Positions 4,212 to 50,017 of a DNA stretch of 64,000 nt are shown here, piece after piece. The position numbers and the translations under genes are program-made. Every line of letters starts with the position of its first letter. Positions within the stretch are counted from its first letter, which is position 1. The stretch spans positions 1 through 64,000 of the forward strand of contig JAIKYA010000006.1 of the NCBI GenBank assembly GCA_024683645.1, in the 5' to 3' direction. The notes beneath the pieces were generated by a model. The model had not been told where the DNA came from. It was given only the letters and a program-made list of their open reading frames with translations, and did no database searches. Source of the DNA: Lachnospiraceae bacterium (lineage in GTDB: Bacteria; Bacillota; Clostridia; Lachnospirales; Lachnospiraceae).

Positions 4212-5206
4212 GTTTTGCAAGATATGTAAAAGAGCATGCCGTATGGATCGCGGCATTTTTGTTTGTCGCATTTACAACGGATATATTTCTGCTGACGATA
4301 AACGGCGCATTGTGGCTTATGATATATGTTGCGGCAGCATCGCTGCTTAGTCTGCTCGCGGGGCTGTTTGCCGGGTACAGGCATTCAAAGCTGTTTTATG
4401 ATGAGATACAAAAGAGGACAGAGGAACTGGAAAAAAAGTACCTGGTACCCGAGGTGATCTCTGAGGATGCTACCCAGGAGGGAGAGCTGGTACATGAAAT
4501 ACTTAAGAAGGCAGAAATATCGATGGCTGACAATGTGGCAAAGTACCGGCGCGAGACCGAAGAATACAGGGATTATGTCGAGAGCTGGGTTCATGAGATA
4601 AAGATACCTATATCGGCAGCCCAGATGATCACCGAGAATCATAAGGACGAAAGCGTAGGCCAAAGCGGAATCAGAGACGAGCTGGATCGTATAGAGTCCT
4701 GTGTCGAACAGGCTCTTTTCTATGCAAGAAGCAATTATGTTGAAAAGGATTATTTCATAAGGGAGATAAATGCTGCAGAACTGGTGCGGCGTGCGGTAGC
4801 CGGGCGCCGCAGGAGCCTGATAGCCCTGCGTGCAAAGATAGATATACGTATCGATGACAGCTTAAAGATCAGAAGCGATGCCAAATGGCTTTCGTTCATA
4901 CTGGGGCAGCTTATAGATAACAGCATCAAGTATGCGAAGGAGGACGGGCAGTTTGTGCTCTCCTTTTATACGGAGGAGACGGACGGACATGTAAATCTGG
5001 TGACAGAGGATAACGGGATGGGCATAAAGAGTTCCGAACTCCCACGTGTCTTCGAAAAAGGTTTTACAGGCAGCAACGGCAGAGCTGGAAAGGCATCGAC
5101 GGGCATAGGTCTGTATCTGTGCAGAAAGCTGTGCCTTCGTCTCGGTCATGATATGATCTGTCAGTCCGAAGAAGGAAAAGGTACTCTGGTAAAGGTGGTA
5201 TTCTGA
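4208..5206 (+). CDS. Sensor histidine kinase, BceS-like intramembrane-sensing type
   Basis: Two N-terminal TM segments, H-box SWVHEIKIPISAAQ, N box QLIDNSIKYAKE, G box GIGLYLCRKL. TTG start overlapping the RR stop. Confidence 0.9.
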   Translation: MSFARYVKEHAVWIAAFLFVAFTTDIFLLTINGALWLMIYVAAASLLSLLAGLFAGYRHSKLFYDEIQKRTEELEKKYLVPEVISEDATQEGELVHEILKKAEISMADNVAKYRRETEEYRDYVESWVHEIKIPISAAQMITENHKDESVGQSGIRDELDRIESCVEQALFYARSNYVEKDYFIREINAAELVRRAVAGRRRSLIALRAKIDIRIDDSLKIRSDAKWLSFILGQLIDNSIKYAKEDGQFVLSFYTEETDGHVNLVTEDNGMGIKSSELPRVFEKGFTGSNGRAGKASTGIGLYLCRKLCLRLGHDMICQSEEGKGTLVKVVF

Positions 5207-5898
5207 TGAATGAGTTTGCAGGGAAAAAAATACTGGTAACGGATGATGACGTATCCATAGGCGATATGCTTGAGGAGGCTCTCAAAGCAGAAGCTTATAA
5301 GGTATGCCGTGCGTATTCCGGGACGGAAGCCCTGATGGTGATCGAAAAGGAAAAACCCGATCTGGTACTGCTGGATCTGATGCTGCCGGGACTTAGCGGA
5401 GAGGAAGTACTGCCGAAGCTTTCCGGAATACCTGTCATAGTGGTAAGTGCAAAGACCGATATCGATAACAGGATAAAGCTCCTCTATGAAGGGGCCTGTG
5501 ATTATATAAGCAAGCCTTTTGTGATCGCCGAACTGCTGGCACGTATAGCCGTGCAGCTGAGGCTTGCCGGAACAAAAGAAAAAAACTTTGCTGATGATAG
5601 CGGAGATACTCTGGCTGCGGGAGGTGTGGAGCTTGACTTTGAACTGCTGAGGGCAGTATGCGGCGGCAGTGAAATAAGCCTTACACGTACCGAGGCAGCC
5701 ATACTCCGTATACTGATGAGTAATCCCGACAGGCCCATAAGCCGCGGGACTATACTTGACCGCATAAGTGAGGATACGCCTGACTGTACCGAACGTTCCC
5801 TGAAACAGCATATCAGCAACATACGTAAAAAGCTGCAGGCTGCGGACGGCATCGATCATATAGAAGCCGTATATGGTATAGGCTTTAAATTCAATTGA
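5206..5898 (+). CDS. Second response regulator, OmpR family
   Basis: KPDLVLLDLMLPGLSGEEVL...ISKPF and winged helix; start overlaps the HK stop. Confidence 0.93.
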   Translation: MNEFAGKKILVTDDDVSIGDMLEEALKAEAYKVCRAYSGTEALMVIEKEKPDLVLLDLMLPGLSGEEVLPKLSGIPVIVVSAKTDIDNRIKLLYEGACDYISKPFVIAELLARIAVQLRLAGTKEKNFADDSGDTLAAGGVELDFELLRAVCGGSEISLTRTEAAILRILMSNPDRPISRGTILDRISEDTPDCTERSLKQHISNIRKKLQAADGIDHIEAVYGIGFKFN

Positions 5899-32588: not shown

Positions 32589-35500
32589 ATGCCAAGACCT
32601 TGGGAAGATCAGAATAACAAATATTATGACAATTACTGGGGACCCGAAAAGGTGCCTTTTGCCATTCCTATGGCTGAACTCAGGACACTTATAAGAGATA
32701 ACGATCTGCCGGCACCTGAGAGAGTCGAGGAGTTGGATGATGAACAGTTTTATGACGCTATGGTTCCGATAATCAAAGAAAAAGGACTCGAACCGCCTGC
32801 AAAGATGCCGGAACTGACAAGGGAAGCTTTTTATGACAAAATGCGTGCCAACGGCTGGACCAGGGAAGGCGACGATGCTATCATCGCTGCAATGTACTGG
32901 CTGGGCTGTCATAATCAGATGGTCTACAATCCGGATATCGATTTCTTTAACCGTATGATGAATTCATCCGCAGCTACCGAAGAAGAAAGAAACAGACTGC
33001 TGACCGATGTTTCCAAGCTTGAATACAATCAGCTGAAACTTTCAAGAGACCTGCGTGAGGTGCTGCGGTATAAGATATGGAACATATCAGATGCGAGGCA
33101 TAAAAGTGATTTCCTGATAGAATTCGCAGAAAACGCTTATGTAAAGGCAGAGGACGAACGTGTACTGGATGTCATCTATGACTGTTACGAAAAACAGGGG
33201 GATGATACCGGTGTTTTGCGTATCAAGTATAATGAGAAATCTGACGGGACCCATTCGGATTTTGCAAATTTCCTGGGTGAGAATATAAGAAAGGCTGAAC
33301 GGGAAGGCTGGTTTAATAATGAGGATGAAAAATATAAGCTTGACATATTAAAGGAAGAATATGAAAAGCAGAATCAGATCAGCAGAGAAATAAAAGCCAG
33401 ACAGGATAGGGAGGATTATCTGCGGGAGACTGCCGTTATAAGGAAATATATGGATTATGCCATAAAGCATCATCTGGAAGATGTAATAAACTCACCCGCC
33501 CAGGTGGATCTGGAATGGGGAACAGCTAATGAGGAACAGCTTACAAGAAAGAGAAACATGCTCAATGCGCAGAAGAACCTGCTTTATCCGCTGTTGACCG
33601 TTTTACAGGATCCCAGGAACAGTCAGGCTGTTGAAAATGTGAAAAACGGCGCCGATACCGCAGATCAGAAGTGGGTATTTGAACGCATCGCCAATACGGG
33701 AATGCTGCGGGAGATAAGTAAACATGATGAAGTACAGCAGGAGCAGAACCTTAATATACTGACCAGAGTGTTTTCCAATTCGATCGAAGATACTTCGGAG
33801 ATCTTTACCGACGAAGAACTTAAAGACAGCTTCTGGACTAATTTCTCCCGTACGCTGACTACCAACGAGATAAAGACCATGCAGGATAAGTTTCTTGCTC
33901 TTACGGACGCCGGCCTTGACTGGGAAGAGTTTGTGGATACCGCAGCCTACAATAAGCTGATGTTTACGCATGGCTTCAAAACATCGGAATACTCTACTTC
34001 GCCCTATAATCTGGCAATGCGTTCACTCGAAGGACGTGAGGGTGAAAATTATATGAAGACGCATCTGAGCGTCTCGCAGTACGATCAGATGATGAAAGCC
34101 CTTGAGGTCATAGATAAGGAGTTTAAGGAAAAGGGCCAGGGGCTTATGGATATGGATGTGCAGGAACTCAGTGGCTGGTTCAATCACAGCGGTTACGACA
34201 TGATCCAGAACACCATACTCATGACCAATGGTTTTGAAGAAAAGATCGTAGACGGAAAGAGCGTCAAGTACATAGATCTGAGCAGTGATGTCGATGAAAG
34301 CAAACTGGACAGGGATCTGCTGACAGAAGACAGTTATAAGAAACTTATCGAGAACGCGAAGGAAGCGCAGAAGATATATAACGACAACAAGAACGTTTTC
34401 CGTGAGATATTTGATACGATGCAGTCCCTGCATGGCAGTAATCTCGGAGGCGAGATACTCGGTGATATGGTAAAGAGTGCAAGCATGAACAAAAAGGCAC
34501 TCGGGGAGATGAACCGTTTCAGACATCTGCTCTTCAACATGAAGGTTGCGGATGCCGACACCTGCAAGCTGATAGATCTGAAAAATAACAATAAAGATGT
34601 GCTTGTTAAGCCGCTCGATGAGAATACAACCTTTGATAAGAATATGGTCGATAAGGAAAAATCCTATATCGACACCTGTATCGAAATGCTCAAGGAGCCT
34701 ACGAACCGGGTGAGCCGCAGCTCGAGGGAGTACTGGAATGTACTTGATTCTCTGGCCGACATGAAGAAGAGCATGGATAAGACCTATGAAAATGATGAGG
34801 AAGCCAAAAGGGCCTACATCAAGTCGGTCAATAAAGTGCTGAGTGATATCAACAAGTACCGCGAACACAAGGCAAAAGACGGTGTAAAACAGGATGCGAC
34901 GAGAGACAAGCTGATCGCACTTGAACGTGTCGACAAGCTGCTGCGTACCAGATACAGGTCAATGGAGCAGAGAGAGTATGAAGACAATATCTACGGCATA
35001 GCTGAACTCTTCAAGGTGGAAGTCGAAGAGGGCAAGATGGGTGACGAATACCTCTACGACAAGGCTATGGCTAAGATCAACAACATGAACAAGAGTATGG
35101 ATGATCTGAGGGCTGAATTCAAACTGATAGATGAGGAAGAGGCCGGCAAGATCAAACGGTCAAATACGATAGGGACCACAAGCGCTGCCAAAGAAACTGC
35201 AGCTGATATAATCGGCAAAATGGAATCACCCAAAAAGGCCGAGCTGAAGAAGAACCTGGAAAAGCTTGACAACAATACTCATCTGAAAACGGCAGAATCA
35301 AAAGAAGAAGCCTTCCGTAATAAGATGGATCCCAAGGATGATTACGGAAAGGAGATGCTGATAAGATCTGCTGAAAAAGAGCTTTACATAGCTTCGGTAA
35401 AGGAACAGGCCAGACAAAAGACCGTTATAGACGGACCTGAAGCCGGTGAAAAGTTCATGAACTCCAGGATGAGCGAGGTTGAGAAGGGTAACAATCTGAG

Positions 35501-35864
35501 ATACCGCACTTTCAAGTTCGAAAACCTGACAGACAAGGACTTTAACAAGGAATTCCAGAAGAGAGTACTGGACGGAGCCGAGAAAGGAAAGACGAGCAGC
35601 AGGGATATCATGACCTTCGCCGATGAAGCACTGACTGCCTGCTACGAAAAGAACAGGAGCAGGAGCGCGGATTTCGACAAACTGTCCGCAACCCTGGGCT
35701 CACAGGTAAACTCAAAGAACCTGAAGAACAAGGTCAATATAAACAAGCTCAAAAACGAAGAAGCTGCCAAAGAGCCCAAGAAAGAAGAAGCTCCGATCAG
35801 GAGGACCAGGACCTTCGACGGCAAGGCAGAGTTAAAAAACGAAAACGGCCCGAAGAAAAAATAA
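32589..35864 (+). CDS. Large uncharacterised, highly charged helical protein (1091 aa)
   Basis: Strong SD (GGAGG) and ATG; no signal peptide or TM seen; no recognised catalytic motif; Lys-rich tail. Confidence 0.85.
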   Translation: MPRPWEDQNNKYYDNYWGPEKVPFAIPMAELRTLIRDNDLPAPERVEELDDEQFYDAMVPIIKEKGLEPPAKMPELTREAFYDKMRANGWTREGDDAIIAAMYWLGCHNQMVYNPDIDFFNRMMNSSAATEEERNRLLTDVSKLEYNQLKLSRDLREVLRYKIWNISDARHKSDFLIEFAENAYVKAEDERVLDVIYDCYEKQGDDTGVLRIKYNEKSDGTHSDFANFLGENIRKAEREGWFNNEDEKYKLDILKEEYEKQNQISREIKARQDREDYLRETAVIRKYMDYAIKHHLEDVINSPAQVDLEWGTANEEQLTRKRNMLNAQKNLLYPLLTVLQDPRNSQAVENVKNGADTADQKWVFERIANTGMLREISKHDEVQQEQNLNILTRVFSNSIEDTSEIFTDEELKDSFWTNFSRTLTTNEIKTMQDKFLALTDAGLDWEEFVDTAAYNKLMFTHGFKTSEYSTSPYNLAMRSLEGREGENYMKTHLSVSQYDQMMKALEVIDKEFKEKGQGLMDMDVQELSGWFNHSGYDMIQNTILMTNGFEEKIVDGKSVKYIDLSSDVDESKLDRDLLTEDSYKKLIENAKEAQKIYNDNKNVFREIFDTMQSLHGSNLGGEILGDMVKSASMNKKALGEMNRFRHLLFNMKVADADTCKLIDLKNNNKDVLVKPLDENTTFDKNMVDKEKSYIDTCIEMLKEPTNRVSRSSREYWNVLDSLADMKKSMDKTYENDEEAKRAYIKSVNKVLSDINKYREHKAKDGVKQDATRDKLIALERVDKLLRTRYRSMEQREYEDNIYGIAELFKVEVEEGKMGDEYLYDKAMAKINNMNKSMDDLRAEFKLIDEEEAGKIKRSNTIGTTSAAKETAADIIGKMESPKKAELKKNLEKLDNNTHLKTAESKEEAFRNKMDPKDDYGKEMLIRSAEKELYIASVKEQARQKTVIDGPEAGEKFMNSRMSEVEKGNNLRYRTFKFENLTDKDFNKEFQKRVLDGAEKGKTSSRDIMTFADEALTACYEKNRSRSADFDKLSATLGSQVNSKNLKNKVNINKLKNEEAAKEPKKEEAPIRRTRTFDGKAELKNENGPKKK

Positions 35865-35893
35865 GCCGGCACACGATCCGGAGCAGCTATTCC

Positions 35894-35920
35894 GAGCGCC
35901 CCTTTAGGGGCGCTCTTTTT
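35894..35920 (+). terminator. Rho-independent terminator
   Basis: GAGCGCCCC-TTTA-GGGGCGCTC-TTTTT. Confidence 0.95.
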
Positions 35921-36015
35921 CGCACATACGCAGCCACGGAAGGGCTTTGATCCCTGCTATATCACCGGTTCTGATGTCACATTGTGTGTGGACAGCCGTT
36001 AAATGGACTATAGAG

Positions 36016-36308
36016 ACACGAAGAATGGATTAGATTTGAGGTTTTCGTGTCGCCTGTTTTTAATGGCGATGAGAAAAAAGACACGAATAACGGAGCGGTT
36101 CAGCTTTTTTCGTGTAAGACGATTTTCAGGCAGATGAAATAAAAGCACGAAAAAATGGTTTATTTCCTTATTTTCGTGCCGGTTGTCCTGGCTGCCTGAA
36201 ATGATGCGGACACGAAGAAAACAAGAAGTGTTTGCTTTTCGTGTATGGCAGAAAAAGAGTCTTCAGACTGCCAGACACGAAAATTCAAGATTTTGCAGTT
36301 TATCGTGT
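36016..36308. repeat. Five-unit periodic inverted-repeat array (ACACGAA-N21-TTCGTGT, period about 65 nt)
   Basis: ACACGAA/GCACGAA at 36016, 36081, 36145, 36210, 36275; TTCGTGT/TTCGTGC/ATCGTGT at 36044, 36109, 36173, 36238, 36302. Confidence 0.9.
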
Positions 36309-36408
36309 ATAAAGTGTAAACCAAACTCGATAAGACAGCATATCAGCCGGTATTCAGTGCTGGTGCTGTTTTTAATTGGCACCATAGATGTCAGGGGTGT
36401 GTGGTTTT

Positions 36409-36428
36409 GACAGTAACTTTATACTGTC
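36409..36428. promoter_or_regulatory. Operator-like dyad upstream of gatA
   Basis: GACAGTA-ACTTTA-TACTGTC, perfect 7-bp arms. Confidence 0.5.
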
Positions 36429-36445
36429 ACCGTATAAATATTCCC

Positions 36446-36474
36446 TTGGATACAAATAAATAAAAAGGTATAAT
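36446..36474 (+). promoter_or_regulatory. Sigma-A-type promoter of gatA
   Basis: TTGGAT - 17 nt - TATAAT. Confidence 0.6.
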
Positions 36475-36511
36475 GGTTATATGTGAAAAAGGAGAATAGT
36501 TTCGGGTGAAT

Positions 36512-37924
36512 ATGAAAAATGCTGTTCGAATGGCAGAGGAGATAAGGAACAGAAAGCTTTCCGTACGTGAGCTGCTGGATAAAACATTTGAAAATACAGA
36601 TGAGCGGGAAAGTGAGCTTAACTGCTACATCACGCTCGACAGGGATGCGGCGTACAGGGCGGCGGCGGAAGTGCAGAGGCGCATAGATGCAGGAGAAGAA
36701 GCCGGAGCGCTGGCAGGAGTGCCGGTGGCGGTAAAGGATAATCTGTGTACGAAGGGAATGCGTACCACCTGCGGTTCAAAGATGCTTGCCGACTGGATTG
36801 CACCTTATGATGCTGCTGTGGTCGAAAGAATAAAGAGCGCCGGAGCTATTGTCATAGGCAAGACCAACATGGATGAGTTTGCTTTCGGCTCCGGGAGCGA
36901 TACTTCCTGTTTCGGAGCAGTGCGAAATCCAAGGGACAGGGAGAGGTCGGCCGGAGGTTCATCGGGCGGCTCAGCTGCGGCGGTGGCGGCAGGAGAGGCG
37001 CTGGTCGCTCTCGGCACCGATACGGGCGGTTCCGTGAGGCTGCCTGCGTCGCACTGTGGCATAGTAGGGATCAAGCCTACTTACGGGAGAGCGTCGAGGT
37101 ATGGGCTCATCGCCTACGCGTCATCTTTTGACCAGGCGGGAGTGCTGGCTGCGGATGTGGAGAGCGCAGCGGCAGCGCTTGAACTGATATGTTCGTATGA
37201 CAGAAGGGATGCAACTTCCGTAAGCTGCAATGAAAGCTTTGAAACTGATACGGCTGACATAAGAGGCATGAGAGTAGGTCTGTGTGAGGATGTGCTTGCC
37301 GGCTGCAATGATGAGGTGGCTGCAGCTGTAAGGAAAGCGGCAGCTGTGTTTGAGGATGCCGGTGCACATGTGGAGGCTGTCAGTCTCAGAAACAGGGAAT
37401 ACGAGCTGCCGGCATATTATGCGCTGGTCACGGCAGAAGCTTCATCGAACCTGGAGAGATATGACGGGGTAAAGTACGGATACAGGGCAGCGGAGTATAA
37501 AGACCTTGAGGAAATGTATGTTAAGAGCCGTACGGAGGGCTTTGGCAGCGAGGTAAAAAGAAGGATAATGCTTGGGAGTTACGTGCTGTCGGCAGGTTAC
37601 TATGATGACATTTATTTGAGAGCGATGAAAGTGCGCCGACTGATAAGCGGGGAATATGACGAACTGTTCGGAAAAATGGATGCGCTGATAGGACCGGTAT
37701 CACCGGAGACGGCGCCGCTCCTTTCGGACAGTTATAAGGATCCCGTGAAGGAGTGGATGAAGGATCTGTGTACCGTAGCGGCCAATCTCGGCGGCTATCC
37801 TGCGATGAGCCTGCCCTGTGGAACGGACGGAAAGGGATTGCCGATAGGCCTGCACATTATGAGCGGAAGATTTAGGGAAGCAGTTATGCTTAAACTTGCC
37901 CGCGCTTTTGAGGAGATGAGATAA
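36512..37924 (+). CDS. gatA: Asp-tRNA(Asn)/Glu-tRNA(Gln) amidotransferase subunit GatA
   Basis: GVPVAVKDNLCTKGMRTTCGSKML, RSAGGSSGGSAAAVAAGEALVALGTDTGGSVRLPASHCG amidase signature; GTG 36506 also possible. Confidence 0.95.
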   Translation: MKNAVRMAEEIRNRKLSVRELLDKTFENTDERESELNCYITLDRDAAYRAAAEVQRRIDAGEEAGALAGVPVAVKDNLCTKGMRTTCGSKMLADWIAPYDAAVVERIKSAGAIVIGKTNMDEFAFGSGSDTSCFGAVRNPRDRERSAGGSSGGSAAAVAAGEALVALGTDTGGSVRLPASHCGIVGIKPTYGRASRYGLIAYASSFDQAGVLAADVESAAAALELICSYDRRDATSVSCNESFETDTADIRGMRVGLCEDVLAGCNDEVAAAVRKAAAVFEDAGAHVEAVSLRNREYELPAYYALVTAEASSNLERYDGVKYGYRAAEYKDLEEMYVKSRTEGFGSEVKRRIMLGSYVLSAGYYDDIYLRAMKVRRLISGEYDELFGKMDALIGPVSPETAPLLSDSYKDPVKEWMKDLCTVAANLGGYPAMSLPCGTDGKGLPIGLHIMSGRFREAVMLKLARAFEEMR

Positions 37925-49163: not shown

Positions 49164-49840
49164 CCCTCCGCCATGTTCTTTATCCTGTTCAGCCCTTTCT
49201 TTACGGGCGGCAGGAGTATCACTATCACGGTAATCACCGCTTCGACAACGAGATATGAATAGTTGTAAGCGATGGGGTAGATGACTGCAAGTGATGAAGG
49301 GAAATTATCAGGCATGTAATCCATCCAGTAGAGATAGCCTCCGATGGTATGGAATACACCTCTTAAGAAAACGGCCACGAGATAACCGATGATCAGGCCG
49401 TTCTTTTTATTCTTAAAGAAGCCCGAAGCACCGAGTGCCGTGAAAGCCAGAAAATAATCGCAGCATACCTGGAAGGGAGTGAGCATGTAGCTGCCTCCGC
49501 TCTGGATGAACTGAAGTATGCTGTATACGAAGGCGGCTGCAAAGCCGGTGCCCGGTCCGAACAGATATCCGACAAAGACAACAAAGAACATCGAGAGCAG
49601 GGTGATATCACCGCCCCAGGGCATTTTCCAGATCCTTACATATGAAAGCACAAATGCGAGCGCCAGTGAAACTCCGGTAAATGTGAGGGTGATCACGGGA
49701 GCTTTTTTTGAAGCCTTATCATCTTTTCTGTTTTTTCTGAAAACGTAGATGAGTATCAGTACGAAGATCGCGATCGCGGCGAGAGCGCCGTAGCCTTTTG
49801 CATTAAGAACATAGTAACCGTCATCTGAATTCCAAAACAT
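49160..49840 (-). CDS. thiT: Energy-coupled thiamine transporter S component ThiT
   Basis: FALSYVRIWKMPWGGDITLLSMFFVVFVGYLFGPGTGFAAAFVYSILQFIQ, TPP riboswitch upstream. Confidence 0.92.
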   Translation of the reverse strand: MFWNSDDGYYVLNAKGYGALAAIAIFVLILIYVFRKNRKDDKASKKAPVITLTFTGVSLALAFVLSYVRIWKMPWGGDITLLSMFFVVFVGYLFGPGTGFAAAFVYSILQFIQSGGSYMLTPFQVCCDYFLAFTALGASGFFKNKKNGLIIGYLVAVFLRGVFHTIGGYLYWMDYMPDNFPSSLAVIYPIAYNYSYLVVEAVITVIVILLPPVKKGLNRIKNMAEG

Positions 49841-49849
49841 ATCTTACCT

Positions 49850-49932
49850 CCTTACGCCGGTATTATCCGGATCAAGTGTTAAGAGTTCAGCCTGCTTTCA
49901 GGCTGTCTCAGCGGATATCCGCACCTCTGGTC
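49850..49932 (-). ncRNA. TPP (THI element) riboswitch
   Basis: Reverse complement contains GCGGATATCCGCTGAGACAGCC...AACACTTGATCCGGATAATACCGGCGTAAGGAGG, matching CUGAGA and CCUGAUCUGGAUAAUGCCAGCG-type conserved boxes. Confidence 0.93.
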
Positions 49933-50017
49933 TGGTGTCAGCCTGCATTTTTGACCTGCAAGCCACAACATGGTAATATAGTGCATGTGTTTAACAAAGT
50001 CAAGAGGAAGTTACGGA

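Follow-up and report, generated by a model that had tools for sequence, protein, structure and literature searches.

The array of inverted repeats at 36016-36308 of the window, i.e., the whole 64,000-nucleotide stretch of DNA that was analyzed, appears to be an orphan, nuclease-less copy of an array that elsewhere in the same genome (G000) adjoins the gene for a predicted PD-(D/E)XK nuclease (C189). We favor, with moderate confidence, the reading that this array is the orphan of the C189 protein's cognate array, including the scheme of binding and spreading proposed below. The C189 protein very probably binds ACACGAA dyads and is likely to do so as cooperating dimers; that the predicted nuclease also cuts and copies its arrays is put forward tentatively. 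Almost certainly, the array is part of a family of nuclease genes that each have their own, differing site array. Searches of open-access PMC papers, Pfam, NCBIfam, PADLOC, PHROGs, and Rfam yielded no description of this family, which is new relative to these sources.

The array and its surroundings comprise the following features.

35894..35915, + strand: predicted hairpin resembling a terminator, assigned to the 1091-aa ORF upstream; the left limit of the array-bearing gap
36014..36329, no strand: orphan array block, five dyad units with short flanks (blastn against the C60 and C157 blocks)
36016..36050, no strand: dyad unit 1, ACACGAA-N21-TTCGTGT
36081..36115, no strand: dyad unit 2, ACACGAA-N21-TTCGTGT
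36145..36179, no strand: dyad unit 3, GCACGAA-N21-TTCGTGC
36210..36244, no strand: dyad unit 4, ACACGAA-N21-TTCGTGT
36275..36308, no strand: dyad unit 5, ACACGAA-N20-ATCGTGT
36447..36474, + strand: predicted promoter-like site TGGATA-16-TATAAT between the array and gatA; about one such match is expected by chance
36506..37924, + strand: gatA, Asp-tRNA(Asn)/Glu-tRNA(Gln) amidotransferase subunit A, the downstream neighbor (ORF list)

The half-sites ACACGAA (36016, 36081, 36210, and 36275) and GCACGAA (36145) and their mirror halves TTCGTGT (36044, 36109, and 36238), TTCGTGC (36173), and ATCGTGT (36302) all lie where a preliminary description had placed them, with the start-to-start spacings of 65, 64, 65, and 65 that it had given. 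The N21 interior that it ascribed to the units holds for units 1-4, but unit 5 has N20. Its statement that the array is not CRISPR stands as well. The array resembles CRISPR arrays in its regular spacing, its variable sequence between short conserved parts, its intergenic position, and its variable copy number. However, a direct repeat of CRISPR length (20-50 nt) is absent, the longest family in 35700-36600 consisting of two 14-nt copies outside the array; only half-sites of 7-8 nt are conserved, paralogues differ by point changes in the intervening sequences, and the linked gene encodes a solitary PD-(D/E)XK protein. No cas gene was noticed among the neighboring ORFs. Since the array sits between a predicted terminator and the predicted gatA promoter, control of gatA by the array is unlikely. 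The gatA gene is present in 30 of the 35 genomes of the genus, no array was found at the gatA loci of relatives, and the gene is outside the array system. The 1091-aa ORF directly upstream of the array (window 32589-35864, + strand) has no Pfam match.

A search of the window only, with up to three mismatches, is a poor test (four matches vs. 1.79 expected), and genome-wide exact searches with reversed control patterns were used instead. The 3.1-Mb genome contains 22 exact dyads when interiors of N17-25 are allowed, vs. 0 for the control, which is far beyond chance, and a pattern of three half-sites gave 14 matches vs. 0. Every occurrence falls in one of six compact intergenic arrays, which hold 37 units: C59 (6), C60 (5), C154, i.e., the window (5), C155 (10), C157 (5), and C189 (6). 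Their period varies within the genome, with 54-55 bp besides 64-65 bp in C59, C155, and C189. Arm positions 2-6 are invariant among the 34 distinct units, and the extended consensus is GACACGAA/TTCGTGTC. Across 85,000 genome species, the exact ACACGAA pattern gave two true arrays, L033 and L034; five further matches appear to be unrelated repeats with CACGAA/TTCGTG. The L033 array (5131-5366), in a Clostridiales genome, has N22 interiors and one step of 74 bp among steps of 63-64 bp, and a nuclease gene is absent within the 8 kb examined there. A Desulfobacterales contig (L036:3180-3600) carries dense, nested CCACGAA/ACACGAA...TTCGTGT/TTCGTGG repeats, which appear unrelated to the nuclease-array family.

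At C189, the six-unit ACACGAA array is located directly upstream of an ORF of ~280 aa with a PD-(D/E)XK nuclease domain. In an uncultured Lachnospiraceae genome (L034), which was found by the pattern alone, the array likewise precedes a homologous ORF (BLASTP 2e-20). The genome of the window contains three further homologues besides that at C189, i.e., four family genes, all on contigs other than that of the window. A scan of the flanks of these three for any alternating inverted half-site revealed an array upstream of each. All four genes have their own upstream array with a different half-site, GACACGAA at C189 and the following at the other three.

C180 nuclease locus: half-site GACACGCAG, period 53 bp
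C202 nuclease locus: half-site GGCAACG, period 62 bp
C9 nuclease locus: half-site AGTCAAC, period 54 bp

Across the family, the half-sites measure 6-10 bp and alternate in inverted orientation. The nuclease ORF at C189 (L020:5330-5540) lacks an obvious ATG in the region where its start is expected, and tandem copies of a ~50-60-bp unit with a GGAGG-like motif lie ahead of it.

The nuclease gene is found in 15 of the 35 genomes of the genus, and so is absent from 20, and in 49 of the 295 genomes of the order, where a single genome may carry eight copies or more. In a sample of the phylum, full-length members were restricted to the same family, and beyond the order only the C-terminal domain was found, usually inside larger proteins. 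Among 81 distinct nuclease loci flanked on either side by 600 bp or more, a fixed criterion (array score of at least 5) identified an array at 62, which is located upstream only in 52 cases, downstream only in 4, and on both sides in 6; the survey covered one genome per species, including many draft assemblies, and the numbers of arrays at contig ends are minimum values. Scores did not exceed 3 in 82 one-kilobase segments of gatA loci from the same genus or 4 in shuffles. Several of the 19 loci under the cut-off still hold 6-11 copies of one hexamer. The family appears to be large in the order, each member having its own half-site array beside the gene and sometimes orphans elsewhere. The nuclease genes are often found 3' of guaA, comEC, or lysS, and different clades of the family occupy the same slot. 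Nuclease-array units fill the guaA 3' slot at L046, L049, L060, L105-L115, and L123 and the comEC 3' slot at L057-L068, L135, L142, L169, and L171; the clades in these slots share about 28-30% protein identity. At guaA loci of the same genus without the nuclease gene, there is no array, with one weak match in a coding region. A partner gene common to most loci was not found, and the nuclease gene is solitary.

The periods of 67 arrays cluster at 52-54, 62-65, 73-76, 83-86, and 94 bp, with little between, which corresponds to 5-9 turns of DNA. The Rayleigh optimum is at about 10.6-10.75 bp (R = 0.80, 85 classes); as the Rayleigh statistics, like the E-values, treat related arrays as partly independent, a test with one value per protein cluster was added, in which R averages 0.89 for 29 clusters, whereas 5000 uniform draws reached at most 0.61. 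Fifteen arrays mix period classes, mostly 9-12 bp apart, and the ACACGAA family mixes 64-65 bp with 54-55 bp. This quantization in helical turns suggests that the arrays are recognized as double-stranded DNA and from a single helical face; it is what proteins lined up on one face of B-DNA would be expected to produce, but RNA hairpins would not. Thus, among the options that the preliminary description had listed, a multi-dimer protein-binding platform gains support from the helically quantized periods and from the cognate PD-(D/E)XK gene family.

A confident AlphaFold model of a family protein (pLDDT 87.6) opens with one helix, a sheet of three strands, and another, long helix and continues into a PD-(D/E)XK-like domain. 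The best, weak matches of the model in the PDB are Bax1 (E = 1.6e-3), then MunI and Hjc. The residues E173, D203, E218, and H219 do not vary among 21 sequences, with His replacing the canonical Lys in an E-H-x-G motif. The acidic active-site residues and the structural matches identify the linked gene as that of a predicted member of the PD-(D/E)XK nuclease superfamily. The N-terminal domain gave no match to known DNA-binding folds, Foldseek returning only weak, prefoldin-like coiled-coil matches, and scans of members with Pfam, NCBIfam, PADLOC, and PHROGs revealed no HUH/TnpA match. Similarity between half-sites tracks protein identity (Mantel r = 0.28, reached by 0 of 1000 permutations), and the correlation is stronger for the N-terminal half (r = 0.32) than for the C-terminal, nuclease half (r = 0.19), which supports the view that the protein reads the half-site, probably via its N-terminal half. 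In the clade formed by the C189, C180, and G013 proteins, the half-sites have a common GACACG core with different extensions.

The block of the window recurs, in otherwise unrelated intergenic surroundings, at C60 and C157, with about 77-79% identity among the three (blastn: 36014-36329 of the window vs. C60, 76.7%; 35965-36328 vs. C157, 77.8%), and ATCGTGT is common to the last units of all three arrays. In these paralogous blocks, 69 of 70 half-site columns are identical vs. 126 of 220 columns elsewhere (p = 4e-13); thus, the sites have been kept. Among the patterns searched, orphan arrays were found for three half-site families: five for ACACGAA and one for ACACGCAG, while for GATAGTAAG G301 has two and G222 has three. 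The orphan of the C180 family is located at C145 (L182). Two GATAGTAAG orphan loci occupy orthologous places in G301 and G222, with a changed number of units, and the third is present in G222 only. Their persistence at orthologous positions would be as compatible with a host function that has been kept as with slow mobility. Neither a clean empty site nor a target-site duplication or excision product turned up at gatA (G013), guaA (16 species of the same genus), or an orphan locus (one genus), where gene order differs and makes such tests unsuccessful, so it is the paralogous blocks that suggest movement.

At four composite orphan loci (L185:2220-2700, L186:2232-2710, L187:2520-3562, and L188:2108-2664), a GATAGTAAG array abuts a AGGCAGTAG array, both with a 52-bp period. 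The two half-sites differ by ~3 bases, and the nuclease at the comEC locus of a related species (L169) uses GCAGTA. These loci are possibly the fossil record of a switch in specificity.

In the scheme that we favor, each dyad would be bound by a protein dimer, and neighboring dimers would cooperate in assembling along one DNA face, since the dyads are spaced by whole helical turns. Action of the nuclease on or near the arrays, followed by recombinational repair, could then expand the arrays locally and generate copies at new intergenic sites, and gene and arrays would co-evolve as a result, like a REPIN-RAYT pair. More tentatively still, we suggest that this constitutes a new genetic system, in which a PD-(D/E)XK protein polymerizes on phased dyad arrays of a private half-site and drives their expansion, their dispersal, and recurrent change of the recognition sequence. 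If so, blocks of old and new half-sites would be left side by side, as at L185-L188, and the system would parallel REPIN-RAYT at the level of double-stranded DNA, its specificity turning over in a PRDM9-like manner. The nuclease-array family would also explain puzzling intergenic arrays in Lachnospiraceae-related genomes. Moreover, the family would offer dozens of natural protein/half-site pairs, several per genome and with the cognate site beside the gene, from which the recognition code of an uncharacterized DNA-binding domain could be read from sequence alone.

RAYTs are encoded by distinct single-copy genes flanked by cognate repeats, the REPINs, which have dispersed extragenic copies (PMC3116915; PMC8049555). 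The nuclease-array system shares with them a single-copy nuclease or transposase gene adjoined by its own repeat family (here at 62 of 81 loci and in none of the controls), several distinct families per genome with no repeats in common, dispersed, extragenic, non-autonomous copies, and co-divergence of repeats and protein (PMC3116915; PMC8049555). However, the enzyme is of the PD-(D/E)XK type instead of a Y1 HUH transposase (TnpA-REP), the repeats are turn-phased arrays of 6-10 bp half-sites, probably read as double-stranded DNA, instead of doublets of 16-mer REP hairpins recognized in single-stranded form, and orphan copies number about 2-5 per family instead of hundreds. Since enzyme class and repeat type differ, the system is an analogue of REPIN-RAYT and not a member; it would be a PD-(D/E)XK addition to the few bacterial examples of a dispersed repeat family maintained by a single-copy enzyme.

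Tn7-like and CAST transposons have ends with multiple transposase-binding sites, and their TnsA is a PD-(D/E)XK nuclease. The nuclease-array loci share this domain, and at some of them the gene is flanked by an array on either side, but no recurring DDE transposase or ATPase partner is found beside the gene, and no defined termini or target duplications were found.

The arrays could also be operators and titration sites that restrain a potentially harmful nuclease, i.e., a DNA-based antitoxin, with gene-linked arrays repressing the gene and orphans adding binding capacity. The upstream position of the arrays at most loci agrees with this, as do the solitary nature of the gene, which lacks a partner at most loci, and the last half-site, which is usually found 30-60 bp before the coding start; at C180, the array even reaches the ribosome-binding site and thus leaves no space for a promoter between array and gene. 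Yet, at some loci the array is located only downstream, one GATAGTAAG orphan array (L185) lies between two convergent genes, and helical phasing among many dyads is not demanded by titration alone. We consider such a DNA sponge unlikely as the function of the arrays.

The chance is smaller still that the array-bound protein is a stored, poised enzyme against phages or plasmids, with the rapid change of half-sites reflecting an arms race. Several divergent copies occur per genome, and the C-terminal domain is homologous to the C-terminus of PDC-S68, a phage-defense candidate in PADLOC (E down to 5e-29), but the likeness is limited to a nuclease domain held in common with a much larger protein: the PDC-S68 models measure ~1200 aa vs. 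~280 aa here, with a different N-terminal half. Recurring defense-island partners are also lacking, the neighbors being housekeeping genes, such as guaA, comEC, and lysS. In line with a defensive role, the family is nearly absent from phage and plasmid records, where one nearly full-length relative was found on a 4.2-kb faecal contig that is unannotated and shows no clear array, and other relatives are partial, mostly restricted to the C-terminal domain. Viral contigs contain relatives of this domain only, and arrays of the ACACGAA half-site were not found in them.

A domesticated chromosome organizer, in which the arrays anchor nucleoid structure or segregation and the nuclease fold serves binding, appears highly improbable. 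The strict helical phasing, the conservation of half-sites after duplication, and the two orphan loci retained at orthologous positions would suit such a role, but a pure binder would not need the invariant active-site residues, and the gene is missing from many relatives (20 of the 35 genus members).

Hardly any credence can be given to an array of structured RNA hairpins, or to an RNA like the antitoxin of type III toxin-antitoxin systems (ToxIN-like), in which a repeat array is likewise located directly upstream of a nuclease gene: although arrays often precede the gene here too and the region folds better than shuffles (z = -5.1), as expected of any inverted repeat, the periods are quantized by DNA turns and so argue for double-stranded DNA, some arrays are downstream of the gene or orphan, the window array lies between predicted transcripts, and an Rfam scan of the window found no family at the array. 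Type III toxins are not known to have the nuclease fold of the PD-(D/E)XK protein. The preliminary description had seen possible covariation in the third unit, where both arms are changed, but this is one unit of 34, and pairing between the arms (233 of 238 cells) does not exceed that of shuffled arms: exchanging arms among units gives a mean of 232.5 paired cells, and 902 of 2000 such shuffles attain the observed value. In seven units, a G faces an unchanged T, and in three the inner pair is A-A. Elsewhere in the window, a TPP riboswitch (RF00059, 73.6 bits) is located at 49832-49938 on the - strand.
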